Origin: Telluria beijingensis
Lineage (GTDB): Bacteria > Pseudomonadota > Gammaproteobacteria > Burkholderiales > Burkholderiaceae_D
NCBI RefSeq assembly: GCF_030770395.1
Contig: NZ_CP132480.1
Span: 973,115 to 1,037,114 of the forward strand
Direction of reading: 5' to 3'
Length of the DNA stretch: 64,000 nt
Of this stretch, positions 18,000 to 39,512 are shown piece by piece. The notes under the pieces were generated by a model. It had not been told where the DNA came from, searched no databases, and saw nothing but the letters and a program-made list of their open reading frames with translations. Position 1 is the first letter of the stretch. Each line of letters begins with the position of its first letter. The position numbers and the translations under genes are program-made.

Positions 18000-18605
18000 A
18001 TGAACAAACCCCATATGATTGCCCAGGCCAGCGGCCGGGCGCCCTTCATCGTCGGCATCGGCGGCACCACCCGTCCCGGCTCGAGTACCGAGAGCGCGCT
18101 GCGCGTGGCCTTGCGCCATGCCGAATCGCTGGGCGCCGAAACCCTGCTGTTCGGCGGCGAGGCGCTGGCTGCTTTGGAAGGCTATTCGCCCGAGCAGGCC
18201 AGCCGCAGCGAAGGCCAGCGCGCCATCGTCGAAGCAGTGCGCAAGGCCGACGCCGTGATCTTCGCCTCGCCCGGCTACCACGGCGGCGTGTCGGGCCTGG
18301 TCAAGAACGCCATCGACCTGCTCGAAGACCTGCGCGCCGACCCGCGTGTCTACCTGGACGGCATGCCGGTCGGCTGTATCGTCACTGCCGCCGGCTGGCA
18401 GGGCTGCAACACGACGCTGGGCGCGATGCGTTCGATCGTGCACGCACTGCGCGGCTGGCCGACGCCGCTGGGCGTCACGCTGAATACCGCTGGCGTGAAA
18501 CTGTTCGATGCGAATGGCGATTGCAGCGACGAGCAGGTGAAGGCCAGCCTGCAGATGCTGGCCGAGCAGGTGGTTGGCGTGAGCGTCGTACAACAGGCTC
18601 AATAA
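18000..18605 (+). CDS. NADPH-dependent FMN reductase family protein
   Basis: 201 residues, flavodoxin-like. It has FIVGIGGTTRPGSSTE at the phosphate-binding loop, then DAVIFASPGYHGGVSGLVKNA, the family signature with the conserved GxSGxxKN, and GCIVTAAGWQGCNT. GAGGAG precedes the start. It probably delivers reduced flavin to the LLM monooxygenase encoded at 14432. Last gene of the LLM-GH3-reductase operon; its stop codon overlaps a candidate operator of the next unit. Confidence 0.9.
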   Translation: MNKPHMIAQASGRAPFIVGIGGTTRPGSSTESALRVALRHAESLGAETLLFGGEALAALEGYSPEQASRSEGQRAIVEAVRKADAVIFASPGYHGGVSGLVKNAIDLLEDLRADPRVYLDGMPVGCIVTAAGWQGCNTTLGAMRSIVHALRGWPTPLGVTLNTAGVKLFDANGDCSDEQVKASLQMLAEQVVGVSVVQQAQ

Positions 18606-19384: not shown

Positions 19385-21079
19385 ATGAGCAACACCACCC
19401 AATTCGACGCCATCGTCATCGGTTCGGGGATCACCGGCGGCTGGGCCGCCAAGGAACTGACCGAGAAGGGCCTGAAAACGCTGGTGCTCGAACGCGGCCG
19501 CAACGTCGAGCACCAGAAGGACTACGTCAACGAATTCACGCCGCCCTGGCAGGCGCCCAACGGCGGCCTGCCGGAGCGCGACCTCGATGCGCGCGACTAT
19601 CCGGTCCAGAGCAAGATCGAGCGCGGCGCCTTCGGCTGGGCCAACCGCCAGTACTGGATCAACGACCGCGAGAACCCGTATGAACAGGTCAAACCCTTCC
19701 GCTGGCACCGCACCGACGTGCTGGGCGGCCGTTCGCTGACCTGGGGCCGCCAGTCCTACCGATGGTGCGAGGACGATTTTTTGGCCAATGCGCGCGACGG
19801 CCACGGCAACGACTGGCCGATCCGCTACGCCGACCTGGCGCCGTGGTACGCCTACGTCGAGAAATTCATCGGCGTCAGCGGCCAGCCCGAGGGCCGCAAG
19901 GATTTCCCCGACGGCGAATTCCTGCCGCCGTTCGCGATGACGCCGGTCGAGCGCGCGCTCAAGCAGGCCATCGAGGCCAAGTGGAAGGACCGCTGCCTGA
20001 CCGTGGGCCGGGTGGCCAACCTGACCCAGGCCCACAACGGCCGCGCGCAATGCCAGAGCCGCGCCATCTGCAACCGCGGCTGCTCGTTCGGCGCGTATTT
20101 CAGCTCGCTCAGCTCGACCCTGCCGGCGGCGCAGGCCACCGGTCGCCTGACGGTGCGCACCGACAGCGTGGTGGAGGCGATCGACACCGATCCGGCCACC
20201 GGCAAGGCCAGCGCGGTGCGCGTGATCGACAGCCGCACCGGCGAGCGCCTGACCTTCAAGGCCAAGGTGATCTTCGTGTGCGCCTCGACCTTCGGCACCC
20301 TGCAGATCCTGCTGCAGTCGCGTAGTGCGGCGCATCCGAACGGCATCGGCAATCACAGCGACGTGCTGGGCCGCTACCTGGTCGATCACGCCGGCGCCGG
20401 CGGCTTCGCCGAAATCCCCGGCTTCATGGACACCAACTACAAGGGGCGGCGCCCGACCGGCATCTACATGCCGCGCTTCCGCAACCTGGGCGGCCAGGAC
20501 CCGGACGCCGATTTCACGCGCGGCTACGGTTTCCAGGGCGGCGCGATGCGCGACGACTGGACCAATACGGCGGCCATGAGCGACGATTTCGGGGCCGGCA
20601 TGAAGCGCAATATCGCGCGGCCCGGCAAATGGATCGCCTTCCTCGGCGCGTTCTGCGAGCAGCTGCCGCAGGCCCACAACCGCGTCACCCTGAACGACAA
20701 GGTGCGCGGCGGCTTCGGCCTGCCGCAACTGAGCATCGACGTGGCCTATGGCGAGAACGAGCGGCGCATGAACCTGGATGCCGGCAAGCAGGCCGAGGCG
20801 ATGCTGAAGGCGGCCGGCGCCCAGCGGGTGCAACTGATCCCGCTGCGCACCATTCCGGGCGTCTCGATCCACGAGATGGGCGGCGCGCGCATGGGGCGCG
20901 ACCCGGCCGAATCGGTGCTCAATGGCCGCAACCAGGTGCATGGCGTGCCGAACCTGTTCGTGACCGACGGTTCGGCGATGGCCTCGTCGGGCACCGTCAA
21001 TCCGTCGCTGACCTATATGGCGCTGACGGCGCGCGCGGTCGACTTCGCGGTGGCCGAACTCAAGGCGGGCCGCCTGTAG
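19385..21079 (+). CDS. GMC-family FAD-dependent oxidoreductase, possible glycoside 3-dehydrogenase
   Basis: 564 residues. The FAD-binding motif DAIVIGSGITGGWAAKELTE is at the N-terminus, followed by LGGRSLTWGRQSYRW; the CNRGC region and C-terminal catalytic blocks SIHEMGGARMG and GTVNPSLTYMALTARA hold the active-site His and Asn. There is no own signal peptide; export is expected with the Tat subunit encoded 25 bases upstream. Enzymes of this two-subunit type oxidise sugar alcohols, gluconate or the C3 hydroxyl of glycosides. The last fits this window, because 3-keto formation is the step before C-glycoside cleavage by the enzyme encoded at 25916-27304. Substrate specificity is inference. Confidence 0.93.
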   Translation: MSNTTQFDAIVIGSGITGGWAAKELTEKGLKTLVLERGRNVEHQKDYVNEFTPPWQAPNGGLPERDLDARDYPVQSKIERGAFGWANRQYWINDRENPYEQVKPFRWHRTDVLGGRSLTWGRQSYRWCEDDFLANARDGHGNDWPIRYADLAPWYAYVEKFIGVSGQPEGRKDFPDGEFLPPFAMTPVERALKQAIEAKWKDRCLTVGRVANLTQAHNGRAQCQSRAICNRGCSFGAYFSSLSSTLPAAQATGRLTVRTDSVVEAIDTDPATGKASAVRVIDSRTGERLTFKAKVIFVCASTFGTLQILLQSRSAAHPNGIGNHSDVLGRYLVDHAGAGGFAEIPGFMDTNYKGRRPTGIYMPRFRNLGGQDPDADFTRGYGFQGGAMRDDWTNTAAMSDDFGAGMKRNIARPGKWIAFLGAFCEQLPQAHNRVTLNDKVRGGFGLPQLSIDVAYGENERRMNLDAGKQAEAMLKAAGAQRVQLIPLRTIPGVSIHEMGGARMGRDPAESVLNGRNQVHGVPNLFVTDGSAMASSGTVNPSLTYMALTARAVDFAVAELKAGRL

Positions 21080-21121: not shown

Positions 21122-21131
21122 TCCATGATTT

Positions 21132-21142
21132 ATAATCAGAAT
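21132..21142. promoter_or_regulatory. half-site of the candidate TetR operator
   Basis: ATAATCAGAAT matches the left half of the palindrome at 14347 (ATAATTAGAAT) in 10 of 11 positions; the right half is not conserved. It lies 60 bases before the chosen TetR start, as expected for autoregulation. It contains a TATAAT-like stretch, so it could instead be only a -10 element. Confidence 0.4.
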
Positions 21143-21202
21143 GCCAACATCGTTATCCACGCGGGGAACCCCACGGTTGCCCGCGCCATTCCCATTCCAT
21201 CC

Positions 21203-21862
21203 ATGACATCGACTCCGACCCCGACCTTCAGCGACCACGCACGCGCGCCCAAGCAGGGGCGCAGCCGCCAATCCTTCGAACGCATCATCGAGGCGACCAT
21301 CGAGCTGTTGCGCGAGCGCGGCTACGACCAGATCACGCTGGCCGAGATCTGCGAGCGCTCGGGCGTGTCGACCGGTTCGCTGTATGGCCGCGTGGCCGGC
21401 AAGGACGAGTTGCTGCGGGTGGTGCAGCTGCGCTTCCTGGATCGCCTGGGCGAGCAGTTCACAGAGGAAGCCACCCGCATCTCCAGCCAGGCGCAGGGGC
21501 TGCAGCAGGTCGTGCCGGCGGTGGTCGCCAGCCTGGGCCGGCTGCTCAAGGAAAACGCCTCGGTGCTGCGCGCCTTCATGCTGCGCGCGCCGGCCGATCC
21601 GGTGATCCAGGCGCAGGGCCAGAAGGCGGCGGAACGCGATTCGGCCAAGTTCCTGAACCTGCTTGAGGCCTGCAGCGCCGAAGTGCGCCACAGTCAGCCG
21701 CAGCGCGCGATCCAGTCGGGGATGCTGATCATCTATTCGACCCAGGCGCGTTTCCTGGGCCTGGACAGCGTGGGCGGCCGCGGGCAGGGCAGTTGGGACG
21801 CGCTGCTGGAGGATCTGAGCGACATGATGCTGGCCTTCCTGCTGTTCGAGCCGGCCAGGTAA
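21203..21862 (+). CDS. TetR/AcrR-family transcriptional regulator
   Basis: 219 residues from the ATG at 21203, where the disordered leader MTSTPTPTFSDHARAPKQGR begins; an upstream in-frame ATG at 21125 falls inside the candidate operator. The helix-turn-helix is plain (RIIEATIELLRERGYDQITL, then ICERSGVSTGSLYGRVAGKD). The C-terminal ligand domain is unassigned. It is read in the same direction as, and just after, the GMC operon and converges with the DHA2 exporter gene. The shared near-palindrome upstream of this gene and of two catabolic operons makes it their likely repressor. Confidence 0.88.
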   Translation: MTSTPTPTFSDHARAPKQGRSRQSFERIIEATIELLRERGYDQITLAEICERSGVSTGSLYGRVAGKDELLRVVQLRFLDRLGEQFTEEATRISSQAQGLQQVVPAVVASLGRLLKENASVLRAFMLRAPADPVIQAQGQKAAERDSAKFLNLLEACSAEVRHSQPQRAIQSGMLIIYSTQARFLGLDSVGGRGQGSWDALLEDLSDMMLAFLLFEPAR

Positions 21863-21866
21863 GGGC

Positions 21867-23321
21867 TTACTTGTTCATGACCCGGGCCAGGCGCGTCGCG
21901 CCGAACATGGCCACCGCCATCAGGCCCAGGAACAGCGGCAGCACCCGCAGGTAAGCCTCGGTATATTCAAGCGCGCCGGCCGTCTCGAGCCGCATGCCGT
22001 GGAAGAAGAACAGCCCGCCCAGCGCCACGCCGAAGGCGCCCGCCACCTGCTGGGTCGCCGACAGCATCCCCGACGCCACGCCCGCTTCGCCCACCGGCAC
22101 GTCCTGCAGGGTCGCATTGGACAGCTGCGGGCCGCACATGCCCATCCCCAGTCCCATCCCGAACTGCGCCACCGCCAGCGGCAGATAGGCCAACTGGCCG
22201 CCGTGCACCGCCCACGCCGCCAGGCACAGGCTGATCGAGGTCGAGGTGGCGCCGAGCAGCATGACGCGCACGCCGATGCGCTTGTGCAGCCACGGCCCGA
22301 TCAGCGTGATGCCGGCCATCGCCCCCGCCGCGATCGGCAGGCAGGCATAGGCCATCTGCGAGGCGGATAGTCCCAGCCCGGTCTGCAGCACGAAGGTCAT
22401 CACCAGCAGGTAGCCCGGCAGCACCGGATTGATGCACAGGGTGCACAGCAAGCCCAGCGCCACCTTGCGCAACCTGAGCAGGGCCGGGTTGACCAGCGCG
22501 TCGCCGCGCGCGGCCTGGCGCCGCGCCAGGTAGCGCACCGTGAACCAGGCCAGTGGCGCGGCGGCCAGGAAGGTGGCGATCAACTGCCATGGCCAGCCCA
22601 GGCTCGGCCCTTCGATCAGCGGCACCAGGATCGCGAACAGCACCACGATCGACAGCGCCGCGCCCTTCAGGTCGACCGGCACCGCATTCACGCCGCGGCC
22701 CGGCGGCAGCAGCAGGTAACCGGCCACCAGGCTGAAGATCCCGACCGGCAGGTTGATCAGGAAGATCATGCGCCAGCCCAGGCCGAACAGGTTGGCGTCG
22801 ATCAGCAGGCCCCCCACGATCGGCCCCATCGCCGCCGAAAAGCCGCCCAGGAAGCCGAATACGGTGTACACCTTGTAGCGCTGGTCGGGCGGGTACATCA
22901 CCTGCACCAGCGCCATCACCTGCGGCATCATCATGGCCGCCGCTGCCCCTTGCAGCACGCGCGCCACCTGCAGCACCAGCGCCGTCGGCGCCAGGCCGCA
23001 GGCCATCGAGGTCAGGGTGAACAGCACTACGCCGATCAGGAACATGCGCCGGTAGCCGACGCTGTCGCCCAGCCTCCCACCCACGATCAGCAGCACCGCG
23101 AACGAGGTGGCATAGCCGGCCACCAGCCATTCCAGCTCAGCCTTGCCGGCGTTCAGGGTGGTGCCGATCGACGGGATCGCCACATTGATGATGGTCGTGT
23201 CGAGCAAGTCCATCACGAAGGCCAGCGCGACCGCGATCAGCGCCATGACGCGGCGCCGCGGCGTATAGGATGAAGCGGCAGAGAATGCGCTGCCCTCCGC
23301 GTGAGTCACGGTATTGTCCAT
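21867..23321 (-). CDS. DHA2-family MFS exporter (EmrB/QacA type)
   Basis: 484 residues with 14 expected membrane helices. Motifs: DLLDTTIINVAIPSIG in helix 1, LIVGGRLGDSVGYRRMF (motif A), ARVLQGAAAAMMMPQVMALV (motif B) and GFLGGFSAAMGPIVGGLL (motif C of exporters). This family pumps out drugs or toxic aromatic compounds with protons. It starts 36 bases after the end of the LacI-type gene on the same strand, so both may share one transcript. It could relieve stress from phenolic aglycones released by this region. Confidence 0.92.
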   Translation of the reverse strand: MDNTVTHAEGSAFSAASSYTPRRRVMALIAVALAFVMDLLDTTIINVAIPSIGTTLNAGKAELEWLVAGYATSFAVLLIVGGRLGDSVGYRRMFLIGVVLFTLTSMACGLAPTALVLQVARVLQGAAAAMMMPQVMALVQVMYPPDQRYKVYTVFGFLGGFSAAMGPIVGGLLIDANLFGLGWRMIFLINLPVGIFSLVAGYLLLPPGRGVNAVPVDLKGAALSIVVLFAILVPLIEGPSLGWPWQLIATFLAAAPLAWFTVRYLARRQAARGDALVNPALLRLRKVALGLLCTLCINPVLPGYLLVMTFVLQTGLGLSASQMAYACLPIAAGAMAGITLIGPWLHKRIGVRVMLLGATSTSISLCLAAWAVHGGQLAYLPLAVAQFGMGLGMGMCGPQLSNATLQDVPVGEAGVASGMLSATQQVAGAFGVALGGLFFFHGMRLETAGALEYTEAYLRVLPLFLGLMAVAMFGATRLARVMNK

Positions 23322-23357: not shown

Positions 23358-24407
23358 TCAGGCCGAGGCGCGGACGATCAGTGCGTGCTGCAGCCGGCGC
23401 GAGTCGGTCGGCGCGCCCGACAGGCGCTTGAGCAGCAGTTCCGCCGCCGCCGCGCCCAGTTCGCGCACCGGTTGGCCGATGGTCGTCAGCTCCGGCTCGA
23501 ACACCCGCGCCACGGGAATATCGTCGAAGCCGATCACGGCGATGTCTTCCGGCACCCGGCGTCCCACGCGGCGGAAGGCCTTGATCGCGCCGATGGCCAG
23601 GGTGTCGGACACCGCGAACACGGCGGTCGGCGCCGACTCCATGGCGAGCAGGGTGCCGACGGCGTCCATGCCGTCGACGAAATCGGTGCCGCGCGCCACC
23701 CGCACGAGTTGCGGGTCGACCGGGATGCCGGCGCGTTTCAGGGCGAACTCATAGCCTTCGTGGCGCTGCTTGGCCCACAGGTAGTCTTCGTTTGCGCTCA
23801 ACAGCGCGATGCGGCGGTGGCCGCGGTTGATCAGGTATTGCACGGCGTCGATCGCGGCCTGGCGGTGGTCGATGCTGACGCTCGGCACGTCGATGTCTTC
23901 CACGTATTCCGAGCAGGCCACCCACGGCAGGTCGGGGATGTCCTTCAGCAGCGGCTTGAGGTCGGCGAAGCGCGCCAGGCTGATGACGCCATCGGCCAGC
24001 CGGTTGTACAGCGGGTCGAGCGCGGGGCTTTCGCGCGACAGCGATTCGGAGGCATCGGCCACCACCAGGCCATAACCGCGGGTGCGCGTCACCGATTCCA
24101 CGCCCTTCACGATTTCGGCGAAATACGGATTCGCGAAATCGGGCACCAGCACCAGCAGCAGGCGGGTCTCGCCGCGCATCAGGCTGCGCGCCAGCGCATT
24201 GGCGCGGTAGCCCAGCTGCGACACCGAGGCCTCGACCCGCGCCCGGGTCTCGTCGGCTACCGCCTTGGTGCCGTTGAGCACGCGCGACACGGTCGCGATC
24301 GAGACGCCGGCGTGGGCGGCGACGGAGGAGATGGAAGCGAGCTTGACAGTGTTCACAGGTGGCAATGGGGCGCCGCGTGGGCGTGGTTCGGTGTGTTTGG
24401 AAGACAT
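23358..24407 (-). CDS. LacI-family transcriptional regulator
   Basis: 349 residues from the ATG at 24407. The N-terminal helix-turn-helix and hinge are typical (KLASISSVAAHAGVSIATVS, RVLNGTKAVADETRARV, LGYRANALARSL), followed by a periplasmic-binding-protein-like sugar domain (VPDFANPYFAEIVKGVE, then FAVSDTLAIGAIKAFRRVG, VIGFDDIPVARVFEPELTTI). An upstream in-frame ATG at 24470 would add 21 atypical residues. It is divergent from the MFS/C-glycoside deglycosidase operon with 231 bases between, which holds two inverted repeats. It is the likely sugar- or glycoside-responsive repressor of that operon and of the TonB receptor at 29747. Confidence 0.92.
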   Translation of the reverse strand: MSSKHTEPRPRGAPLPPVNTVKLASISSVAAHAGVSIATVSRVLNGTKAVADETRARVEASVSQLGYRANALARSLMRGETRLLLVLVPDFANPYFAEIVKGVESVTRTRGYGLVVADASESLSRESPALDPLYNRLADGVISLARFADLKPLLKDIPDLPWVACSEYVEDIDVPSVSIDHRQAAIDAVQYLINRGHRRIALLSANEDYLWAKQRHEGYEFALKRAGIPVDPQLVRVARGTDFVDGMDAVGTLLAMESAPTAVFAVSDTLAIGAIKAFRRVGRRVPEDIAVIGFDDIPVARVFEPELTTIGQPVRELGAAAAELLLKRLSGAPTDSRRLQHALIVRASA

Positions 24408-24484
24408 GGTCGTAGGTGAGGAAAAGCCTTTCCTAATATAGCGGAAAAGGGTGTCTCGGCCGCCTGCCATGGGTATTGAAAATA

Positions 24485-24638: not shown

Positions 24639-25892
24639 ATGAGCGGCCACAGCAACGACACCCTCATGGCGGGGCAGGGCACAGCCGCGCCTGTCCTGCG
24701 CAAGGCCGACTGGCGCCAGGGCTGGATCCTGGTGTTTTCGGGCTTCCTGCCGGTGATGGCCATCATGGCCCTGGCGCCCACCTTGCCCACCCTGCTGGCG
24801 CACTTCCACGACGTTCCCAATGCGCGCACCATGGTGCCGCTCCTGATCACGGCGCCGAGCGCCTGCATCGCGCTGTTCGCCCCGGGCTTCGGCGTCGTCG
24901 CCGACCGCTTCGGGCGGCGCAAGCTGATGCTGTGGTGCCTGGCCCTGTACGCGGCGGGCGGCCTGTGCCCCTTCCTGATCGATAACTTCTGGGCCGTGGT
25001 CGGCGGCCGCATCCTGATCGGCATCGGCGAGGCGGGCGTGCTCACCGTCGTCAACACGCTGCTGGCCGACTATTACGAAGAGAAGGACCGCCACCGCTGG
25101 CTGATGATCCAGGGCCTGATCGGCTCCTGCCTGGGCACGCTCACCATCGCCGGCTCGGGCTTCCTGGCGGCGCAGGGCTGGCAGTATCCGTTCCTGGTCT
25201 ACGGCGTCGCGATCCCGATCTTCCTGGCCAGCCTGTTCTACCTGTTCGAACCGACCGCGCGCAAGCGGCCCGCCGATGCAGCGGGGGGCGCGCCTGCCGC
25301 CAGGCCGAAGTCGGCATTCCCCCTCAAGGTCGCCGTGATCGTCTGCAGCGTCACCGTGCTGCTGTCGACGATCTACTTCGTCCAGGTGATCAACTTCTCC
25401 TTACTGCTGAAGGAACTGGGCCTGTCCGATCCGAAATCGATCGGCCTGTCGATGGCCTTGCCGAGCATCGGCGTGCCGATCGGCGCCGTGCTGTACCGCT
25501 ACACCACCCGCTACGGCGCCGGAGCCCAGATCTTCCTGGTGTTCCTGTGCTATGCGATCGGCCTGGGCGGCATCGGCATGTCGCCCGACTACCAGACCGC
25601 GCTGGCCTTCGCCTTCGTCCAGCAGCTGGCCAACGGCATGATCGTGCCTTCGCTGATCACCTGGGTGCACGGCCGCTTCGGCTCCGAACACCTGGGCCGC
25701 GCCATGGGCCTGTGGTGTAGCGCCTTCTTCGCGGCGCAGTTCCTGTCGCCGGCCACGGTCAACATCATGCGCGACCTGGTTGGCAGCCTGCAGGCGGCCT
25801 TCCTCGCCTTCGGCGTGATCTCGGCCGTGTGCGCGCTGATCGCCTGCGCCCTGCACCTGCGTACGCCGCGGCCAAGCCGCGCTTCCATCTGA
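24639..25892 (+). CDS. MFS transporter, probable glycoside or aromatic acid uptake
   Basis: 417 residues, 12 expected membrane helices. It has motif A-like VVADRFGRRKLML, RILIGIGEAGVLTVVNTLLADYY in helix 4 and a loop after helix 6 (EPTARKRPADAAGGAP). AAGGAGG lies 7 bases before the ATG at 24639; an in-frame ATG 6 bases earlier is too close. It is the first gene of the operon carrying the C-glycoside deglycosidase subunits, so import of the glycoside across the inner membrane is the likely role. It is distinct from the exporter-type MFS at 21867. Confidence 0.88.
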   Translation: MSGHSNDTLMAGQGTAAPVLRKADWRQGWILVFSGFLPVMAIMALAPTLPTLLAHFHDVPNARTMVPLLITAPSACIALFAPGFGVVADRFGRRKLMLWCLALYAAGGLCPFLIDNFWAVVGGRILIGIGEAGVLTVVNTLLADYYEEKDRHRWLMIQGLIGSCLGTLTIAGSGFLAAQGWQYPFLVYGVAIPIFLASLFYLFEPTARKRPADAAGGAPAARPKSAFPLKVAVIVCSVTVLLSTIYFVQVINFSLLLKELGLSDPKSIGLSMALPSIGVPIGAVLYRYTTRYGAGAQIFLVFLCYAIGLGGIGMSPDYQTALAFAFVQQLANGMIVPSLITWVHGRFGSEHLGRAMGLWCSAFFAAQFLSPATVNIMRDLVGSLQAAFLAFGVISAVCALIACALHLRTPRPSRASI

Positions 25893-25915
25893 ACCTCGCT
25901 TTTCAAAGGACTTGC

Positions 25916-26905
25916 ATGAACACGAATCACCGCATCAAGCGCGGCGTCTCCCTGTACAGCTACCAGTACGAGACCTTCCTGCGCACGATGAACCTGGACG
26001 ACTGCATCGCCCACGCCGCCAGCCTCGGCGCCAATGGCATCGAAGTCGTCAGCGAACAATCGTTCACCGGTTTCCCGAACGTCCCGCAGGACCAGGTCGA
26101 CGGCTGGTTCGCGTCGCTCGAGCGCCACGGCGCCTACGCCCAGTGCCACGACATGTTCCTGGACATCAAGCTGCACAAGGACCGCAAGCTGAGCTTCGAC
26201 GAAATGGTGGCCTCGCTCCAGCGCGACCTGCGCTTCGCCAAGAGAATCGGCTGCCGCAACCTGCGCGTCATCGTCAACACCCCGCCCGAAGTGGTCGTGG
26301 CCTGCGTGCCGCTGGCCGAGGAACTCGACGTGCGCATGGGGATCGAGGTGCACTCGCCGTTCCACTTCGACCATCCATGGATCCTGCGCTATACCGAACT
26401 GACCCGCGCCACGGGCTCGGACCACGTCGGCTACGTGCCCGACATGGGCATGTACCTCAAGAGCTATCCGCCGGTGTTCCGCGAGCGCTTCCTGCGTAAC
26501 GGCGCCACCCCGAAGATCGTCGAGTTCATCGAGCAGGCCTACGGCGCGCGCGTGCTGCCCGATTATGTGATCATGGATGTGCGCAAGCTGGGCGGCAATG
26601 CGGTGGACGTGCAGATGGCCGAATCGCTGCGCCATAATATCTGGAGCAATCCGCGCCGCATGCTCGAGTTCATGCCGTGGATCTTCAATATCCATGCCAA
26701 GTTCTACGAGATCGACGACAGCGGCCGCGAACCGTCGATCCCCTACGACGAAATCGTCGCGGTGCTGCTCGAGGGCGGCTACGATGGCCACCTGTCCAGC
26801 GAATACGAGGGACAGCGCCATATCGAGGATGCGTTCGAAGTCGACGGCCGCGAGCAGGTACGCCGCCAGCAAGAGATGTTCAAGCGCCTGTTGGGCGAAG
26901 TCTGA
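25916..26905 (+). CDS. C-glycoside deglycosidase alpha subunit (TIM barrel)
   Basis: 329 residues, a sugar phosphate isomerase/epimerase-type (AP endonuclease 2 family) barrel: RGVSLYSYQYETFLRTMNLD, GANGIEVVSEQSF, HDMFLDIKLHKDR, MGIEVHSPFHFDHP, HVGYVPDMGMY, IFNIHAKFYEID and GYDGHLSSEYEGQ. Glu, Asp and His at strand ends (IEVHSP, VPDMG, NIHAKF, SSEYEG) are the expected metal ligands. The gene directly downstream encodes the small beta subunit found only in C-glycoside deglycosidases. Such complexes (DgpB/DgpC of the puerarin-degrading gut strain, CarB/CarC of Microbacterium) cut the C-C bond of 3-keto C-glycosides. AAAGGA precedes the start. The substrate class is firm; the particular glycoside is not known. 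Confidence 0.88.
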   Translation: MNTNHRIKRGVSLYSYQYETFLRTMNLDDCIAHAASLGANGIEVVSEQSFTGFPNVPQDQVDGWFASLERHGAYAQCHDMFLDIKLHKDRKLSFDEMVASLQRDLRFAKRIGCRNLRVIVNTPPEVVVACVPLAEELDVRMGIEVHSPFHFDHPWILRYTELTRATGSDHVGYVPDMGMYLKSYPPVFRERFLRNGATPKIVEFIEQAYGARVLPDYVIMDVRKLGGNAVDVQMAESLRHNIWSNPRRMLEFMPWIFNIHAKFYEIDDSGREPSIPYDEIVAVLLEGGYDGHLSSEYEGQRHIEDAFEVDGREQVRRQQEMFKRLLGEV

Positions 26906-26917
26906 GGAGAAGCGACC

Positions 26918-27304
26918 ATGTACGATCAACACATCATTTTCCCGGACAGCGTCCGCAATACCCGCACCGACGAAGGTGTGATCGGTTTCGAGCTTGGCGC
27001 CCGCCTGCCATACTACCGCGGCCAGACCCTGTCGGCGGTCGAGGACATCGGTCTCGCGATCGACGGCGAAAAGGTGCCGCGCGAGCAGATCCGTTTCTCG
27101 GTGCGCGGCAAGACCTGGACCCTGGACGAACTGGAAACGGTCTATGAAGAGCGCTGGGAATTCGGCGAAGTCGCCCACATCACGGTCGCGCAGCCGGGCG
27201 GCCTGGCGCCGGGCGCGCACAAGGTGACGGCCTCGGTGCAGCTGCGTATTTCCTACCTGCCGTGGAGCCCGGTGACCAGCTGCACGATCGAGACCACGGT
27301 TTGA
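26918..27304 (+). CDS. C-glycoside deglycosidase beta subunit
   Basis: 128 residues, all beta, cytoplasmic. It has the family pattern FPDSVRN, IGFELGARLPYYRGQTLSAV, IAIDG-type IGLAIDGEKVPREQIRFSV, then TLDELETVYEERWEFGEVAH and AQPGGLAPGAHKVTASVQLR with the ending RISYLPWSPV. This short protein (formerly DUF6379) has, as far as I know, no other role than as partner of the TIM-barrel alpha subunit in C-glycoside deglycosidases, where its loops help form the active site. GAGGAGA precedes the start, 12 bases after the alpha gene. It is the most diagnostic gene of the locus. Confidence 0.88.
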   Translation: MYDQHIIFPDSVRNTRTDEGVIGFELGARLPYYRGQTLSAVEDIGLAIDGEKVPREQIRFSVRGKTWTLDELETVYEERWEFGEVAHITVAQPGGLAPGAHKVTASVQLRISYLPWSPVTSCTIETTV

Positions 27305-27317
27305 CGCGGGAGCGTAC

Positions 27318-28391
27318 ATGAGCACCACCATCAAGGGGCCGGCGATCTTCCTGGCCCAGTTCACGGGAGACCAGGCGCCGTTCGACAGCTGGGAGGCGAT
27401 CACCCGCTGGGCCGGTGGTCTTGGCTACGAGGGCGTGCAGCTGCCCTCGGGCGACAAGCGCCTGTTCGACCTGGCGCTGGCGGCCGAGAGCAAGACCTAT
27501 TGCGACGAGATCGCCGGCGTGGCGCGCGCCAACGGCGTCGCCATCACCGAGCTGAGTACCCATCTGCAAGGCCAGCTGGTGGCGGTGCATCCAGCCTATG
27601 ACGAAGCCTTCGACGGTTTCGCCCCGCCCGAGCTGCGCGGCCGCCCGGCGGCGCGCCAGGAATGGGCGGTGCAGCAGATGCTGCTGGGCGCGAAAGCCTC
27701 GGCCAACCTGGGCCTGACGGCCTCGATCAGTTTTTCGGGCAGCCTGGCCTGGCCGTATCTCTACCCCTGGCCGCAACGTCCGCCCGGCCTGATCGAGACC
27801 GCCTTCGACGAGCTGGCGCGGCGCTGGCGCCCGATCCTGGATGCGTATGACGCAGCCGGCGTCGATCTCGCCTTCGAGCTGCACCCGGGCGAAGACCTGT
27901 TCGACGGCGCCACCTTCGAGATGCTGCTGGAGCGGGTCGATAACCACCCGCGCCTGGCCATCGCCTACGATCCCTCGCACTTCCTGCTGCAGCAGCTCGA
28001 TTACCTGGCCTTCATCGACCGCTATCACGAGCGCATCAAGGTCATGCATGTGAAGGATGCCGAGTTCCGGCCCGATGCGCGCCAGGGCGTGTACTCGGGC
28101 TACCAGTCGTGGCAGGACCGCGCCGGGCGTTTCCGTTCGCTGGGCGACGGCCAGGTCGACTTCAAGGCAATCTTTTCCAAGTTCGCGCAATACGATTTCA
28201 AGGGCTGGGCGGTACTGGAATGGGAATGCTGCCTCAAGCATCCCGAGCAGGGCGCGGCCGAGGGCGTGGCCTTCATCCGCGACCACATCATCCGCGTCAC
28301 CGACAAGGCCTTCGACGATTTCGCGGGCAGCGGCGCCGATCCGCAGCGCAATCTGCGCATGCTGGGTTTGAGCAGGAGTCATGATGAGTGA
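27318..28391 (+). CDS. sugar phosphate isomerase/epimerase family protein
   Basis: 357 residues, a second TIM barrel of the xylose-isomerase-like group and clearly different from the alpha subunit: AIFLAQFTGDQAPFDSW, GGLGYEGVQLPSGD, SISFSGSLAWPYLYPWPQRP, DLAFELHPGEDLFDG, IAYDPSHFLLQQLDYLAFID, IKVMHVKDAEFRP and WAVLEWECCLKHPE. Metal ligands Glu, Asp, His and Glu are all present at strand ends. Such proteins are nearly always paired with Gfo/Idh/MocA oxidoreductases, as here (the next gene overlaps it by 8 bases), and act on keto-sugars by isomerisation or hydration. It probably processes the released 3-keto or anhydro sugar. Confidence 0.88.
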   Translation: MSTTIKGPAIFLAQFTGDQAPFDSWEAITRWAGGLGYEGVQLPSGDKRLFDLALAAESKTYCDEIAGVARANGVAITELSTHLQGQLVAVHPAYDEAFDGFAPPELRGRPAARQEWAVQQMLLGAKASANLGLTASISFSGSLAWPYLYPWPQRPPGLIETAFDELARRWRPILDAYDAAGVDLAFELHPGEDLFDGATFEMLLERVDNHPRLAIAYDPSHFLLQQLDYLAFIDRYHERIKVMHVKDAEFRPDARQGVYSGYQSWQDRAGRFRSLGDGQVDFKAIFSKFAQYDFKGWAVLEWECCLKHPEQGAAEGVAFIRDHIIRVTDKAFDDFAGSGADPQRNLRMLGLSRSHDE

Positions 28392-29541
28392 AACCCTTTT
28401 TCCCGGCCGCGTGCGGCTGGGCATGGTCGGCGGTGGCGAGGGCGCCTTCATCGGCGCCGTGCACCGCCATGCGGCGCGGCTCGACGACCGCTACGAACTG
28501 CTGGCCGGGGCGTTGTCGTCGACCTCTGATGCGGCCCAGCGCTCCGGGCGCATGCTGGGCCTGGACCCGGACCGCATCTACGACAGCTACCAGGAGATGG
28601 CGCTGAAGGAAGCCGCCCGCCCGGACGGCATCGAGGCGGTCAGCATCGTGACGCCGAACCACCTGCATGCGCCGGTGGCGCGCGCTTTCCTGGAAGCGGG
28701 CATCCACGTCATCTGCGACAAGCCGGTCACCACCAATAGCGAGGATGCGCGCGCGCTGCAGGCCTTGGCGAAGGAGCGCGGCCTGCTGTTCGCCGTCACC
28801 CACAACTACTCGGCCTACCCGATGGTGCGCCACGCCCAGCAGATGGTGCGCGACGGCGTGCTGGGACAGCTGCGCATCGTGCAGGTCGAGTACGCCCAGG
28901 ACTGGCTGGCCGAGCCGCTCGAACAGGGCGGGCAAAAGCAGGCGGCCTGGCGCACCGACCCCGCGCGCAGCGGCGGCGGCGCGATCGGCGACATCGGCTC
29001 GCACGCCTGGCAGCTGGCCGACACCATCGTCGGATCGCCGCTCGAATCGCTGGCCGCGCAGCTGCATTCCTTCGTGCCGGGGCGCGCTGTCGACGACGAC
29101 GTGCAAGTCCTGCTGCGCTATGCGAACGGCGCGCGCGGCATGCTGTGGGCCAGCCAGGTGGCGCCCGGCCACGAAAACGAGTTACGCATCCGCGTGTTCG
29201 GCAGCCAGGGCGGCATCGAATGGGCGCAGCAGCAGCCCAATGAATTGCGCTGGACGCCGCTGGGCGAGCCGACCCGCATCGTCACCCGCGGCAGCGCGGC
29301 GATGAACGAGGCGGGGCGCCGCCTGAGCCGCATACCAGCCGGGCATCCGGAAGGGTATATCGGCGCCTTCGCCTCGCTGTACAGCGAGATCGCCTGCCAC
29401 CTGATTGCCAGGAGGGACGGCGGCGACCCCGGCGCGGCGCAATTCCCGACCATCGACGACGGCTTGCGCGGCGTGCAGTTCATCGAAACCGTGCAGGCGT
29501 CCTCGCGCGCCGGAGGAGCCTGGACCCGGCTTCCGGAATAA
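28384..29541 (+). CDS. Gfo/Idh/MocA-family oxidoreductase
   Basis: 385 residues. The Rossmann motif RLGMVGGGEGAFIGAVHR is followed by SIVTPNHLHAPVARAFLEAG and the catalytic-lysine signature HVICDKPVTTN; the second domain carries GGGAIGDIGSHAWQLADTIV with the conserved Asp and His. I use the second of two adjacent ATGs because AGGAG is 5 bases before it. It overlaps the preceding gene's stop, so translation is coupled. In the puerarin system the equivalent enzyme (DgpA, same superfamily) oxidises the sugar at C3 before C-C cleavage, or reduces the released 3-keto sugar. Either direction is possible here. Last gene of the operon, before a strong terminator. Confidence 0.9.
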   Translation: MSETLFPGRVRLGMVGGGEGAFIGAVHRHAARLDDRYELLAGALSSTSDAAQRSGRMLGLDPDRIYDSYQEMALKEAARPDGIEAVSIVTPNHLHAPVARAFLEAGIHVICDKPVTTNSEDARALQALAKERGLLFAVTHNYSAYPMVRHAQQMVRDGVLGQLRIVQVEYAQDWLAEPLEQGGQKQAAWRTDPARSGGGAIGDIGSHAWQLADTIVGSPLESLAAQLHSFVPGRAVDDDVQVLLRYANGARGMLWASQVAPGHENELRIRVFGSQGGIEWAQQQPNELRWTPLGEPTRIVTRGSAAMNEAGRRLSRIPAGHPEGYIGAFASLYSEIACHLIARRDGGDPGAAQFPTIDDGLRGVQFIETVQASSRAGGAWTRLPE

Positions 29542-29560
29542 ACCCGCTTCACCGCGGCAG

Positions 29561-29594
29561 CGGCCTCGCAAGAGCACTTGCGAGGCCGTTTTTT
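29561..29594 (+). terminator. intrinsic terminator of the C-glycoside operon
   Basis: CGGCCTCGCAAG and CTTGCGAGGCCG form a perfect 12-base stem with the loop AGCA, followed by TTTTTT. It starts 19 bases after the Gfo/Idh/MocA stop and is the clearest terminator in this part of the window. Confidence 0.93.
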
Positions 29595-29746: not shown

Positions 29747-31963
29747 ATGAACGTTCCCCAGCTGACTTTGCTCGCCAGGTCGCTTCTCGCAGTTGGTTTC
29801 TTGTCCGGCGCGACTGCCGCCATGGCCCAGACCCCGGCCCCGGCCGACGACGGCGGCGTGCAGGAAGTGATCGTCACCGCGCAGAAGGTGGCGCAGCCAG
29901 CCAGTAAAACCCCGATCGCGCTGTCGGTGCTGTCGGGCGAAGACCTGAAGGACGCCGGCATCAACGACCCGCGCGGCCTGACCAGCACCCTGCCCAATGT
30001 GCAGATCGCATCGGAAGGCGGTATGCTGCAGATCGCGATCCGCGGCGTGACCAGCATGGACATGACGGAAAAGGGCGATCCCTCGTCGGCCTTCCACGTC
30101 GACGGCGCCTACATACCGCGCCTGGAGGCGCAGGGCGTCGCCTTCTACGACCTGGACCGGGTCGAGGTGCTGCGCGGCCCGCAAGGCACGCTGTATGGCC
30201 GCAACGCCACCGCCGGCGCCATCAATGTGATCACCGCCAAGCCAACCAAGAAGCTGGAAGCCCGCATCGGCCTCGAAGTCGGCAACTACAACACCAGGCG
30301 CGTCGACGGCATGATCAACGTGCCGATCAACGATATGTTCGCCCTGCGCGCCGCCGTCAACGGCAACAAGCGCGACACCTATCTGAAGCCGGGCCCAAAT
30401 GCCGACCACCTGGAAAACCAGGACGACCGCTCGGGCCGCGTGCACCTGCTGGCCGACTTCAATGCCACCACCAGTCTGCTGCTGACCGCCGAGACCAGCC
30501 GCATCAAGGGCAATGGCATCTCGCCGGTGCCGGTGACGAACTTCTTCACTGGCACGCCGACCGGCACGCTGCCGCTGACGCCGGCGGGCCGCGGCAACAA
30601 CCTGCTCAACCCGGTCTACGTCGACCGCGGCGACGATGCCCAGCGCACCGCGGCCTGGGAGTTCAGGAACGGCGGCCGCGACGCCTATCGCGACCACAAG
30701 ATCGATTCGCTGCGCGGCGAATTCAAGACCACGCTCGGCGCGGTCGACGTCACCTACCAGCTGGCGCATATGGACACCGAGTTGAACAACCTGGACAACG
30801 GCGTCTATTTCGGCTTCCCGTTCACCCGCGACGCCACCGGCGAGAGCCAGTCGACCTCGCACGAGCTGCGCTTCAACTCGACCGGCACCGGACCGCTGCG
30901 CTGGGTCGCGGGCGCCTATTACTTCACCGACGAAATCACGCGTAAGGCCAACCTGACGACCTATGCCCGGATTCCGCCCGGCCCGCTGAACGTGCTGGTG
31001 CCGTTCGACGCCGAAGCGGAAAATACCTCGAAAGCGGTGTTCGCCCAGGCCACCTACGACCTGCGCCAGGATACCCGCCTGACTCTCGGCGCGCGCGAAA
31101 CCCGCGACCGCAAGTACGGCGCGGACACGCTGGCCGGCGCGGCCATCTCGCCGGTCACGGGCGTCAGCCCGAACGCCTACCAGGCGGACGTCAAGTTCAG
31201 CGACACCAGCTGGCGCGTCGGCATCGACCACGACCTGCGTCCCAACGTGATGGTGTATGCCAATGTGTCGACCGGCTACAAGGCGGGCGGCTTCAACGCA
31301 GCCTCCGGCTCGTCGATCTACAAGCCAGAAAAATTGAAGTCGTACGAGGCGGGCCTGAAAGGCCGCTTCCTGGACAACAAGCTGCAGCTGGCAGCGACCG
31401 TGTTCCGCTACGACTACAAGGACATGCAGCTGAGCGCGGCCACCTGCCTGACCAACGATCCGGCATCGTGCAATACCAACACGACCAACGCCTCCGACGC
31501 CACCATCAATGGCCTGGAACTCGAAGGCAAGCTGCGCGTCACGGCCGACGGCACCCTGCGCACCAATATGGCGTTCACCGACGCCAAGTTCGGCGACTAC
31601 CGTCCGACCCTGAGCGTCGATTTCTCGGACAAGCCGCTGGACCGCGCACCGAGCGCCACCATCGGCCTGGGATACACCCACCACTTCGCACTGGCCAGCG
31701 GCGCCGACATCACGGCCACGATCGACACGCGCCACTCGACCTCGTACCTGATCAGCGATCCGTCGGTGGGCATCCGTTATCGCCAGCCGTCGTTCTACCG
31801 CACCGACCTGACGCTGGGGTATACCAGCCCGGGCGGCGAGTGGAGCGCCCAGCTGTATGCACGCAACCTGGAAAACGAGATCAAGATCGAGAGCCGGGTG
31901 CCGGGCGGCTTCCACATCGGCGATCCGCGTACCTTCGGCCTGCGCGCGACGTATAACTTCTGA
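29747..31963 (+). CDS. TonB-dependent outer-membrane receptor
   Basis: 738 residues. The signal peptide ends near AMAQ, and a TonB-box-like stretch follows (VQEVIVTAQK). The plug has TPIALSVLSGEDLKDAGI, VEVLRGPQGTLYGRNATAGA and INVITAKPT, and the barrel ends FGLRATYNF with a terminal Phe. AAAGGAGA precedes the start. This receptor type (SusC-unlike, no SusD partner) brings in plant phenolics, glycosides or siderophores. Placement directly after the C-glycoside operon, and promoter blocks shared with it, suggest that it admits the same glycoside through the outer membrane. Confidence 0.93.
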   Translation: MNVPQLTLLARSLLAVGFLSGATAAMAQTPAPADDGGVQEVIVTAQKVAQPASKTPIALSVLSGEDLKDAGINDPRGLTSTLPNVQIASEGGMLQIAIRGVTSMDMTEKGDPSSAFHVDGAYIPRLEAQGVAFYDLDRVEVLRGPQGTLYGRNATAGAINVITAKPTKKLEARIGLEVGNYNTRRVDGMINVPINDMFALRAAVNGNKRDTYLKPGPNADHLENQDDRSGRVHLLADFNATTSLLLTAETSRIKGNGISPVPVTNFFTGTPTGTLPLTPAGRGNNLLNPVYVDRGDDAQRTAAWEFRNGGRDAYRDHKIDSLRGEFKTTLGAVDVTYQLAHMDTELNNLDNGVYFGFPFTRDATGESQSTSHELRFNSTGTGPLRWVAGAYYFTDEITRKANLTTYARIPPGPLNVLVPFDAEAENTSKAVFAQATYDLRQDTRLTLGARETRDRKYGADTLAGAAISPVTGVSPNAYQADVKFSDTSWRVGIDHDLRPNVMVYANVSTGYKAGGFNAASGSSIYKPEKLKSYEAGLKGRFLDNKLQLAATVFRYDYKDMQLSAATCLTNDPASCNTNTTNASDATINGLELEGKLRVTADGTLRTNMAFTDAKFGDYRPTLSVDFSDKPLDRAPSATIGLGYTHHFALASGADITATIDTRHSTSYLISDPSVGIRYRQPSFYRTDLTLGYTSPGGEWSAQLYARNLENEIKIESRVPGGFHIGDPRTFGLRATYNF

Positions 31964-32790: not shown

Positions 32791-32894
32791 AGACCGTGGC
32801 GATCCGTTGTCAAGCAGCCGCAACCGGCTTATGATGGGCCGGTGCGCGGCACTGCCGCGTGCATCCTCGAACAAGGTGGAGACACGCCGGCCGC

Positions 32895-33809
32895 ATGCGC
32901 TTTAATAAACTCGATCTGAATTTGCTCGTCGCGCTCGACGCGATGCTCGCCGAAAAGAACATCAGCCGCGCCGCCGAGCGCATGCACATGAGCCAGAGCG
33001 CCATGAGCAATGCCTTGTCGCGCCTGCGCCAGTATTTCGAAGACGACCTGCTGGTGCAGGTGGGCCGGCGCATGGACCTGACCCCGCGCGCCCAGATGCT
33101 GCAGGAGAGCGTGCGCGACGTGCTGCTGCGCGTCGATATCGCCGTCGCCACCTCGCCGGTGTTCGACTACGCCAGCTCGGACCGCGAATTCACCCTGTTC
33201 GTGTCCGATTTCACCTTGCAGACCGTGCTGCCGCACATGCTCGCCCTGACGCAGAAAAAAGCGCCGAACGTGCGTTTCAGGCTGCAGCCGCAGGCGCGCG
33301 AGCCCGAGCGCGCGATGGAGCGCGGCGAGGTCGACCTGCTGGTCATCCCCGAACGCTACTGCTCGCCCACTCATCCCACCGAGCCGCTGTTCGAGGAGCA
33401 GCTCAGTTGCGTGGTGTGGAACGGCAGCCCGCTGGCGCAGGGGCCGCTGACTTTGGCCCAGTACACCGCGGCCGGCCACGTCGCCGTCTCGCCCGGCCAC
33501 AACCAGCATGCGTTCGACCACCTCGCGCTGCAGCAGGAGGGCGTGGAACGCCGCATCGAAGTCACCACCTTCAGCTTCACCTCGGCCGCCGGGCTGGTGG
33601 TCGCGACCGACCGCATCGCCACCGTGCATGAACGCCTGGCGCGCCAGGCCGCGCGCCTGCTGCCGCTGGTGATCCATCCGCTGCCGGTGCCCACCGCGCC
33701 GATGCGCCAGTTCATGCAATGGCATAAGTACCGCGCCTTCGATCCCGGCATCGTCTGGCTGCGCGAGGTGATGCACGAGGCGGTTGCGGCAATGCACGCC
33801 GCCGACTGA
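32895..33809 (+). CDS. LysR-family regulator, NodD-like
   Basis: 304 residues from the ATG at 32895. It begins with the NodD/LinR-type pattern MRFNKLDLNLLVALDAMLAE, NISRAAERMHMSQSAMSNAL and RLRQYFEDDLLVQVGRRM, and the effector domain has DREFTLFVSDF and GEVDLLVIPERY. NodD and FdeR of this group respond to flavonoids and related aromatics. It lies 160 bases before the ring-cleavage operon and reads in the same direction, so it is the probable activator of that operon. An in-frame GTG at 32859 is less likely, because a GGTGGAG stretch follows it. Confidence 0.9.
   Translation: MRFNKLDLNLLVALDAMLAEKNISRAAERMHMSQSAMSNALSRLRQYFEDDLLVQVGRRMDLTPRAQMLQESVRDVLLRVDIAVATSPVFDYASSDREFTLFVSDFTLQTVLPHMLALTQKKAPNVRFRLQPQAREPERAMERGEVDLLVIPERYCSPTHPTEPLFEEQLSCVVWNGSPLAQGPLTLAQYTAAGHVAVSPGHNQHAFDHLALQQEGVERRIEVTTFSFTSAAGLVVATDRIATVHERLARQAARLLPLVIHPLPVPTAPMRQFMQWHKYRAFDPGIVWLREVMHEAVAAMHAAD

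Positions 33810-37336: not shown

Positions 37337-39512
<2,176 letters not shown>

Follow-up and report, generated by a model that had tools for sequence, protein, structure and literature searches.

The window, a stretch of 64,000 nucleotides from Telluria beijingensis, holds a compact operon on the forward strand (24639–29541) with the gene order MFS transporter, C-glycoside deglycosidase (CGD) α subunit, CGD β subunit, hydratase (HYD) and Gfo/Idh/MocA oxidoreductase. All five genes, with the transporter at their head, were confirmed at the positions given by a sequence-only reading of this DNA. They are separated by gaps of 23 (MFS/α), 12 (α/β) and 13 (β/HYD) bases, HYD and Gfo overlap by 11 bases, and the transporter gene begins with an ATG preceded by GGAGG. 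A 14-bp stem with a run of T residues just 3′ of Gfo is a probable intrinsic terminator (Table 1); the stem-loop does not appear in the list of a separate scan. A LacI-family gene also adjoins the CGD operon at three loci of Duganella and Pseudoduganella (L007–L009), and a TonB receptor gene lies directly 3′ of Gfo at these three loci and in Massilia PDC64 (L013). The host had been described as Oxalobacteraceae-like, and the nearest α subunits among named relatives indeed come from Massilia, Duganella, Pseudoduganella and Telluria.

The operon is embedded in an island of about 24 kb (14420–38334). The sequence-only reading had ended at the operon and overlooked the conserved gene set that surrounds it. 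PobA is an uncertain member of this island, recurring at 1 of 80 kept loci, and a nearby cytochrome c gene (32485) recurs at none of the 80.

Table 1. Features of the island and its edges. Recurrence refers to 80 kept CGD α loci out of 359, each taken with 10 kb on either side.
Feature	Position	Strand	Evidence	Recurrence
LLM, putative luciferase-like FMN-dependent monooxygenase	14420..15529	+	Pfam Bac_luciferase 135 bits	26/80
GH3, β-glucosidase-like glycoside hydrolase	15533..17971	+	Pfam Glyco_hydro_3, 3_C, PA14	26/80
NADPH-dependent FMN reductase, proposed LLM partner	18000..18605	+	Pfam FMN_red 82 bits	21/80
Tat-signal small subunit (gluconate 2-dehydrogenase subunit 3 family)	18703..19359	+	Pfam Gluconate_2-dh3 104 bits	10/80
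FAD-dependent GMC dehydrogenase, proposed glycoside 3-dehydrogenase	19385..21079	+	Pfam GMC	30/80
TetR-family regulator	21125..21862	+	Pfam TetR_N	37/80
MFS transporter 2	21867..23321	-	Pfam MFS_1	32/80
LacI-family regulator, divergent from CGD operon	23358..24470	-	Pfam LacI	8/80
MFS transporter, first gene of CGD operon	24639..25892	+	Pfam MFS_1 158 bits; common family	58/80
Predicted CGD α subunit, metal-dependent TIM barrel	25916..26905	+	PDB 8qvc_A E 7e-122	
Predicted CGD β subunit	26918..27304	+	Pfam CGDB; PDB β chains	
HYD, predicted 2-hydroxy-3-keto-glucal hydratase	27318..28391	+	8ro4 E 1.3e-164	
Gfo/Idh/MocA oxidoreductase, proposed 3-keto-glucose reductase	28381..29541	+	Pfam; best PDB 3v5n 491 bits	
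Probable intrinsic terminator of CGD operon	29559..29594	+	stem-loop + TTTTTT, -28.3 kcal/mol, z -6.4	
TonB-dependent outer-membrane receptor	29747..31963	+	Pfam TonB barrel and plug	
LysR-family regulator	32859..33809	+	Pfam; common family	22/80
abH, α/β hydrolase related to 2,6-dihydroxypseudooxynicotine (C-C bond) hydrolase	33970..35130	+	2jbw E 1e-18	
VOC-superfamily extradiol-type dioxygenase	35160..36116	+	Pfam Glyoxalase 30 bits	14/80
Rieske [2Fe-2S] ferredoxin-like protein	36131..36490	+	Pfam Rieske 37.6 bits	5/80
Cyclase-family hydrolase	36506..37336	+	Pfam Cyclase 122 bits	11/80
FAH, fumarylacetoacetate hydrolase family	37333..38334	+	Pfam FAA_hydrolase 113 bits	8/80
PobA, 4-hydroxybenzoate 3-monooxygenase	38331..39512	+	TIGR02360 669 bits, cut-off 538.7	1/80

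C-glycosides are resistant to ordinary glycosidases. The prediction that the second and third genes of the operon encode a two-subunit CGD holds on several lines of sequence evidence. In the profile search that had been proposed as a check, the small β subunit matches PF19906 (CGDB) with 137.5 bits (cut-off 27.6) over positions 1–112 of 112, and a PDB search finds it similar to solved CGD β chains. The solved chain nearest to the α subunit is 8qvc_A, with 175 of 326 aligned residues identical (54%), the other solved CGD chains scoring about 140 bits or less; altogether, the α subunit resembles eight distinct solved sequences, all from PDB entry sets that also match the β subunit, and in 8qrz both matches lie within a single chain. 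Located through alignment to DgpC chains, the metal ligands (E144, D176, H260, K262 and E296) and the catalytic base (H146, E298) are all kept and are invariant in 17 aligned sequences; mutating the corresponding CGD residues lowers activity (Mori, 2021). PF19906 occurs as a single copy in the genome, which is one contig of 6.0 Mb, and is absent from all 14 control genomes. A β gene is present at 79 of the 80 kept α loci and starts within 150 bases after α in 77; at two loci (L049, L077) it starts about 930 bases past α, and a third (L073) stops just past α.

The CGD studies considered here deal chiefly with Firmicutes of the gut and Actinobacteria of the soil, and go no further than the free aglycone. 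The further claim that this operon extends CGD to a new group does not stand, since homologues had already been reported in Proteobacteria (Mori, 2021) and Pseudomonadota (Kumano, 2025), and our genome scan found 359 CGD loci, the 80 kept ones being mostly proteobacterial.

On the sugar side, HYD shares 235 of 348 residues (67.5%; residues 4–351) with 8ro4, a solved 2-hydroxy-3-keto-glucal hydratase, of which it is an orthologue by sequence. That this second TIM barrel acts on the sugar set free by CGD had been a guess, now supported by an orthologue named for exactly such a product. Its supposed place outside the known systems has to be given up: according to PMC10628242, an Agrobacterium tumefaciens operon for O-glucosides includes a hydratase and proceeds by oxidation, elimination, hydration and reduction, and the same four steps are predicted there for a puerarin operon. 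Given the CGD assignment and the HYD orthology, our operon fits this scheme, with CGD replacing the O-glycoside eliminase (OGE). The predicted dehydrogenase, eliminase, hydratase and Gfo reductase classes all lie within 18703–29541, the dehydrogenase outside the operon.

Since HYD and the Gfo enzyme are common to the Agrobacterium pathway, the pair might act in vivo mainly as an eliminase of 3-keto O-glucosides or other 3-keto glycosides, with C-glycosides cleaved incidentally. HYD also occurs in loci or genomes without CGD, in some cases adjoining xylose genes, and a GH3 glycosidase is part of the island. We nevertheless consider such a role quite unlikely, given that CGD is defined by its α/β architecture and PF19906, that the authors of the Agrobacterium study describe OGE as a TIM barrel without sequence similarity to C-glycoside enzymes, and that the CGD metal and catalytic residues are all retained here.

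For the preceding oxidation, our candidate is the GMC dehydrogenase with its small subunit, in which a Tat-type motif, SRRDVLAALVAGG, can be read. An assignment of the GMC protein to the pyranose-oxidase/C-glycoside-oxidase type was rejected, as fructose dehydrogenase large subunits (149 bits) and glucose dehydrogenase (128 bits) score higher in a PDB search than the oxidase-type chains 7qf8 (62 bits) and 8qve (47 bits). Alternatively, the Gfo/Idh/MocA enzyme could be the initiating 3-dehydrogenase as in DgpABC, leaving the GMC/Tat pair to another substrate; after all, puerarin oxidation in gut bacteria is the work of DgpA, a Gfo-type protein, and the Gfo gene lies inside the operon, with the GMC gene 3.5 kb away. 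We judge this unlikely, because the Gfo protein scores only about 40 bits to DgpA-type chains versus 491 to 3v5n, because the operon of Duganella guangzhouensis (L015) holds GMC/Tat genes between HYD and Gfo, and because GMC recurs at 30 of the 80 kept loci.

LLM, FMN reductase, GH3, GMC dehydrogenase and the putative aromatic ring-opening kit recur near CGD, both among other Proteobacteria and on a plasmid of Deinococcus. For instance, in stretches of about 18 kb, Sphingobium pTomTYG65a and Deinococcus aetherius pDAETH-1 each bring together CGD, LLM and GH3 with genes for abH, cyclase, and FAH-type and VOC-type proteins. The window's abH is 70% identical to the copy in the Deinococcus cluster; in Sphingobium, Croceicoccus and Deinococcus the VOC proteins belong to a different type, with at most 34% identity to the window's over partial length. 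A cluster of Deinococcus aerius is reportedly linked to C-glucosyl flavonoid deglycosylation, judging by the title of a 2024 study by Furlanetto. Among 249 genomes of one family, 15 carry CGDB; HYD is found in 15/15 of these versus 27/234 others, abH in 15/15 versus 28/234 and LLM in 8/15 versus 0/234 (Fisher p of 2e-13, 3e-13 and 2e-11, respectively, not corrected for relatedness). Of the 15 carriers, 11 have HYD no more than 20 kb from CGDB, while in the other 4 it is over 300 kb distant or on a different contig; abH lies within 20 kb in 5, so part of the link to CGD is co-occurrence rather than operon membership. Among the 80 kept loci, HYD occurs at only 38 within their 10-kb flanks.

It could be argued that LLM, GH3 and the ring-opening genes belong to an unrelated aromatic pathway and are adjacent by chance: the LLM–FMN reductase–GH3 triad is also seen without annotated CGD nearby, and LLM is lacking in 7 of the 15 CGD carriers of this family and in 6 of 20 hand-picked carriers (two of which look like the same genome). 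Chance adjacency is highly improbable, however, with CGD present in all eight LLM carriers among the 249 genomes, similar content on the Deinococcus plasmid, and 22 genes of the window chosen as controls each recurring at no more than 7 of the 80 kept loci.

The real novelty of the island is the reaction of LLM, an enzyme whose predicted fold is nearest to luciferases and related monooxygenases. We think that LLM and the FMN reductase oxygenate the aglycone, and advance tentatively that the two proteins make up a new kind of flavin monooxygenase, of the two-component type and serving aryl-glucoside catabolism, which would feed the aglycone, by ring hydroxylation or a Baeyer–Villiger-type step on an aryl ketone, into the VOC/abH/cyclase/FAH kit. 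An FAD monooxygenase encoded beside ring-opening genes in Massilia PDC64 has no close relative in this genome, its best matches being PobA (E 3.9e-5, 25%) and one other at 30%; a Pseudomonas plasmid carries the ring-opening kit together with LLM and FMN reductase, no FAD monooxygenase being annotated in the stretch examined, and both observations favour the proposed role of LLM. Still, LLM is not a simple substitute for the FAD monooxygenase, since the two occur together in 6 of 26 LLM loci, on pTomTYG65a and in Deinococcus. Known FAD monooxygenases for 8-hydroxylation, FdeE and IfcA, share only 36% identity. Downstream, the VOC protein is similar to 3b59 and to 2,3-dihydroxybiphenyl dioxygenase. 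If the proposal for LLM is true, Alpha- and Betaproteobacteria and Deinococcota would possess a self-contained pathway that takes C-glycosyl phenolics of plants all the way into central metabolism.

Taken together, we read the window as holding an island for the catabolism of aryl C-glucosides, with C-glucosyl flavonoids as the most likely substrates, at a probability of roughly 0.8. Enzyme families, catalytic residues, HYD orthology and gene linkage are borne out by the sequence and support this reading. The glycoside would cross the outer membrane via the TonB receptor and be oxidised at C3 of the sugar by the Tat-linked GMC dehydrogenase, probably in the periplasm; an MFS carrier would then take up the oxidised glycoside. 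CGD would cleave the C–C bond by metal-assisted β-elimination into aglycone and 2-hydroxy-3-keto-glucal, to which HYD would add water to give 3-keto-glucose, and the Gfo/Idh/MocA enzyme, which we infer to act as a reductase, would return glucose. In the aglycone branch, which we infer as a whole, the aglycone would first be oxygenated; the VOC dioxygenase would then open its ring, leaving fragments for abH, cyclase and FAH to cleave. The island suggests a way in which Proteobacteria of soil or associated with plants could complete C-glycoside breakdown, with a Tat-linked dehydrogenase replacing an oxygen-using oxidase, sugar recycling through a hydratase, and opening of the aglycone ring. It supplies named, testable genes, including the uncharacterised luciferase-like enzyme, as well as CGD candidates for use in the enzymatic cleavage or synthesis of C-glycosides. 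A 2026 paper is said to use a 3-keto-C-glycoside lyase for such synthesis.

Several known systems resemble parts of this island. With DgpBC, CarBC, PurBC and AgCGD, the predicted CGD shares the α TIM barrel and CGDB-type β subunit, adjacent genes, common metal ligands and the His/Glu pair, whereas its cluster carries another 3-oxidation enzyme and its α subunit is 54% identical to the nearest chain. Like PurABC of Paenarthrobacter and CarABC of Microbacterium, it would couple soil-type FAD-dependent 3-oxidation to CGD; the GMC protein, however, is nearest to fructose dehydrogenase, as judged against the oxidase-type chains 7qf8 and 8qve. The GlycDH-OGE-HYD-GfoOx operon of Agrobacterium tumefaciens has a hydratase orthologue, a Gfo reductase and an FAD dehydrogenase with a Tat partner in common with the window, but contains OGE in place of the two-subunit CGD. 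For the aglycone, the fde (Herbaspirillum) and ifc (Variovorax) clusters for flavonoid A-ring cleavage are described in similar terms, with a glyoxalase-type dioxygenase near an α/β hydrolase resembling dihydroxypseudooxynicotine hydrolase, a likeness of the VOC protein drawn from its family and gene neighbourhood; here, by contrast, the kit is linked to C-deglycosylation, in a genome without a close relative of the Massilia FAD monooxygenase. Lastly, the D. aetherius plasmid shares CGD, GMC, LLM, GH3 and the ring-opening kit with the window, but has ABC uptake, and neither HYD nor Gfo is annotated along the stretch examined.

The operon for a C-glycoside deglycosidase (CGD) in Telluria beijingensis is a sound finding: at its core stands a pathway that is already known, here newly combined, and it lies within a broader catabolic gene set, which we call the island in the following. 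Its five genes encode an MFS transporter, the α and β subunits (CGDα, CGDβ), a hydratase (HYD) and the oxidoreductase Gfo, stand at the positions where the sequence-only reading had proposed a complete operon, and are separated by gaps of 12–23 bases or joined by a short overlap. Directly behind the last gene lie a strong stem-loop and a T run; this probable terminator was recognised in the intergenic sequence and then folded, and a terminator scan did not list it. The small protein, for which a match to the β-subunit family had been the proposed check, passes the Pfam profile CGDB (PF19906), and CGDα matches eight distinct solved sequences from the same PDB entries that supply the CGDβ matches; an NCBIfam search gave no match for either subunit. 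Among PDB entries, we take 8qvc and 8umc to be from Deinococcus aerius. By alignment to DgpC chains, guided by the mutated residues given in the available part of Mori 2021 (PMC8563793), the predicted metal ligands of CGDα are E144, D176, H260, K262 and E296, and H146/E298 would form the catalytic pair. All of these are invariant across an alignment of the window protein with 16 others, chosen among 120 listed of 1020 matches (54–87% identical). In Duganella guangzhouensis (locus L015) an additional, divergent CGD pair follows further down the same run of genes, and another lies about 13 kb from the normal copy in locus L003 (genome G033); these are 29–37% identical to the window's. We do not claim a LacI operator before the operon: TGGGAAAGCG is common to four of eight regions, and the window's region holds no palindrome with arms of at least 6.

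The second TIM barrel, HYD, had been guessed to act on the released sugar and to lie outside the minimal known systems. Its match to 8ro4, a deposited 2-hydroxy-3-keto-glucal hydratase that is presumably the Agrobacterium enzyme, has E 1.3e-164, and 235 of 348 aligned columns are identical. The accessible text of PMC10628242 describes oxidation, elimination, hydration and reduction for an Agrobacterium O-glucoside operon, predicts the same four steps for the puerarin operon, and grades its own hydratase evidence as preliminary. Because of this match and that paper, the guessed substrate holds, but the enzyme is not new. In Sinorhizobium (L097) and Azospirillum (L098), HYD and Gfo genes adjoin xylA/xylB where the annotation of the stretch lists no CGD; the hydratase may also serve a xyloside pathway. 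HYD relatives with 72% identity are also found on two Klebsiella plasmids (NZ_CP063938.1 and NZ_CP132737.1).

For the oxidation step, a flavoprotein (GMC) and its Tat-signal small subunit are encoded 3.5 kb upstream of the operon. Among solved chains, the large subunits of fructose dehydrogenase and glucose dehydrogenase resemble GMC most closely, ahead of pyranose and C-glycoside oxidases. The operon of D. guangzhouensis itself includes, between HYD and Gfo, a related pair with 45 and 57% identity. Because of these nearest relatives and this placement, we favour the GMC/Tat pair as the putative 3-dehydrogenase; the oxidation would take place in the periplasm. Cytochrome c as the electron acceptor of GMC is unsupported, as it recurs in none of the 80 loci described below. 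We take the solved structures 3v5n and 7qf8 to be rhizobial and a glycoside 3-oxidase, respectively.

The sequence-only reading had further seen a betaproteobacterial CGD as an extension to a new group, and this claim falls, as does that of a first such case. A scan of genome contigs yielded 359 loci encoding a relative of CGDα, and the best 80 of these come from Massilia-type bacteria, Paraburkholderia, sphingomonads, Nitrospirillum, Paraflavisolibacter (which we take to be Bacteroidota) and others, including some MAGs labelled as Gammaproteobacteria, Chloroflexi or Acidobacteria. PF19906 was found in four of 61 genomes searched as relatives, all four among the 37 of the same genus (own genome included), and above cut-off in three of 398 genomes of a phylum sample, with a fourth match below cut-off. 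In print, CGD homologs in Proteobacteria/Pseudomonadota are already named in the available portions of PMC8563793 and PMC12724307. Furthermore, the reference list of PMC12062775 holds a title (Furlanetto 2024) on the deglycosylation of C-glucosyl flavonoids by Deinococcus aerius, and the listing of PMC13273386 reports a 3-keto-C-glycoside lyase for C-glycoside synthesis. Searches of one open-access library, which do not imply absence elsewhere, gave no description of CGD in Massilia or Novosphingobium, of the broader gene set around CGD, or of the link to the luciferase-like monooxygenase (LLM).

We compared 22 window proteins with the 80 loci by tblastn (E 1e-10, coverage of at least half; 61 loci are longer than 20 kb).

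Features of the window and of one related locus, with the number of the 80 loci that hold a tblastn match
Feature	Position	Strand	Loci
TerD-domain gene	9925–10500
TerD-domain gene	11282–11866
Island	about 14420–38334
LLM	14420		26
Tat-signal subunit	18703		10
GMC	19385		30
CGD operon	24639–29541	+
MFS			58
CGDβ			79
HYD	27318		38
Gfo	28381		41
Shortened VOC relative	32011–32484
Cytochrome c	32485		0
α/β hydrolase (abH)	33970		20
Extradiol-type dioxygenase (VOC)	35160		14
FAH	37333		8
PobA	38331		1
TonB			39
TetR			37
MFS2			32
GH3			26
LysR			22
FMN reductase			21
Cyclase			11
LacI			8
Rieske			5
Second CGD pair, D. guangzhouensis	L015:15905–17285

As a control, 22 other window proteins recur in at most seven of the loci, and 16 of them in none. 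Counts for MFS, TonB, LysR and TetR carry less weight because these families are widespread, and absences are weak evidence because the loci extend just 10 kb from CGD. In Massilia-type genomes, LLM lies 14–31 kb from CGD, with a shared contig assumed for the nine named loci; for G022, G031 and G033 the shared contig is certain and the distance is 15–33 kb. PobA, with its single match, was rejected as a core gene of the island. Massilia/Telluria versions of the island (L012–L014) carry up to three extra TIM-barrel (AP_endonuc_2) genes and an MFS gene between TetR and LysR, which the window does not have at that place. The TerD-domain genes, of the tellurite-resistance type, lie upstream of the island at a distance of a few kb.

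Co-occurrence was assessed in 249 genomes drawn evenly from family f63 (that of G190), probably Sphingomonadaceae. CGDB is present in 15 of them, spanning 11 genus labels. LLM (E 1e-60 or better) is present in eight, all among these carriers; in each, it shares a contig with a CGDB at a distance of 2–21 kb (in G484, where LLM is in pieces, measured from the nearest piece). HYD (E 1e-100; 42 genomes) and abH (E 1e-60; 43 genomes) are both found in all 15 carriers; the distance to CGDB is at most 20 kb in 11 carriers for HYD and in five for abH. With kinship ignored, Fisher p values with CGDB are 2e-11 for LLM, 2e-13 for HYD and 3e-13 for abH. Of 21 handles selected by hand, among which G031 and the genome of L013 are apparently the same genome, 15 have LLM. 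One of these, G378, has no CGDB found; the other 20 handles are all CGD carriers, with LLM in 14 and missing in D. guangzhouensis, Ramlibacter (L016), a Burkholderiaceae MAG (L017), two Paraburkholderia (L024, L027) and Ideonella (L029).

Similar gene sets are found in other named bacteria. A 17.5 kb stretch of Sphingobium pTomTYG65a encodes CGDα, CGDβ, LLM, GH3, HYD, Gfo, FAH, cyclase, abH, a VOC protein, an FAD monooxygenase, two MFS and GMC; next to these, at the position of the Tat subunit, comes a hypothetical protein. No FMN reductase is annotated there, and a similar cluster in Croceicoccus marinus includes one. Deinococcus aetherius pDAETH-1 carries, in a row, TetR, LLM, FMN reductase, GH3, a GntR gene, ABC uptake, CGDα, CGDβ, GMC, VOC, cyclase, FAH, abH and FAD enzymes. 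Examples of identity to the window are 70% (LLM) and 71% (HYD) in Sphingobium, and 70% (abH) and 60% (LLM) in Deinococcus. The VOC of all three clusters is of another type, resembling that of locus L067 and at most 34% identical to the window's over partial length, while FAH and GMC of Deinococcus are only distantly related to the window's; both points count against a strict one-to-one island.

Among 72,556 plasmid records, LLM occurs in 10 (E 1e-60) and CGDα in 13 (E 1e-40), with both in six. Novosphingobium aromaticivorans DSM 12444 carries adjacent CGDα and CGDβ genes on a plasmid. The trio of LLM, FMN reductase and GH3 precedes abH, VOC, FAH and cyclase on a plasmid of Pseudomonas, and on one of Streptomyces sp. 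NBC_00342 (L100) it lies near pca (protocatechuate) genes and the gene for a 4-hydroxybenzoate 3-monooxygenase; no CGD is annotated on the former or in the latter stretch. These contexts link LLM to the breakdown of aromatic compounds and not to sugar cleavage. Its predicted model (pLDDT 84, pTM 0.87) is nearest to bacterial luciferases, the monooxygenase 2i7g, RslO1 and type II Baeyer-Villiger enzymes (16–22% identical among the top 20), which establishes the enzyme class but says nothing of the substrate. The rishirilide enzyme RslO1 (7bip) presumably performs a Baeyer-Villiger-type step. The idea that LLM plainly replaces the FAD 8-hydroxylase finds no support, as both occur together in six loci, on pTomTYG65a and on pDAETH-1.

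In Massilia PDC64, an FAD monooxygenase lies between Rieske and cyclase; the window has none at that place, and a probe with the Massilia protein found no close relative in the T. beijingensis genome. An assignment of VOC as FdeC or IfcB was rejected; a homolog search with this protein showed a very large family (2960 matches among 7998 candidates scored). A 157-aa shortened relative of the N-terminal half of VOC (59% over 170 columns) ends directly before the cytochrome c gene and resembles a duplicate that has decayed. Since abH and VOC fit a Variovorax cluster and the FAD monooxygenase relative was not found, a flavonoid as substrate is a reasoned guess. According to the accessible part of PMC11069340, this isoflavone cluster encodes an FAD 8-hydroxylase together with a dioxygenase of the glyoxalase type, and within the same hotspot lies an α/β hydrolase resembling dihydroxypseudooxynicotine hydrolase, whose disruption left daidzein degradation unaffected. 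Both abH and VOC of the window are consistent with what is described there.
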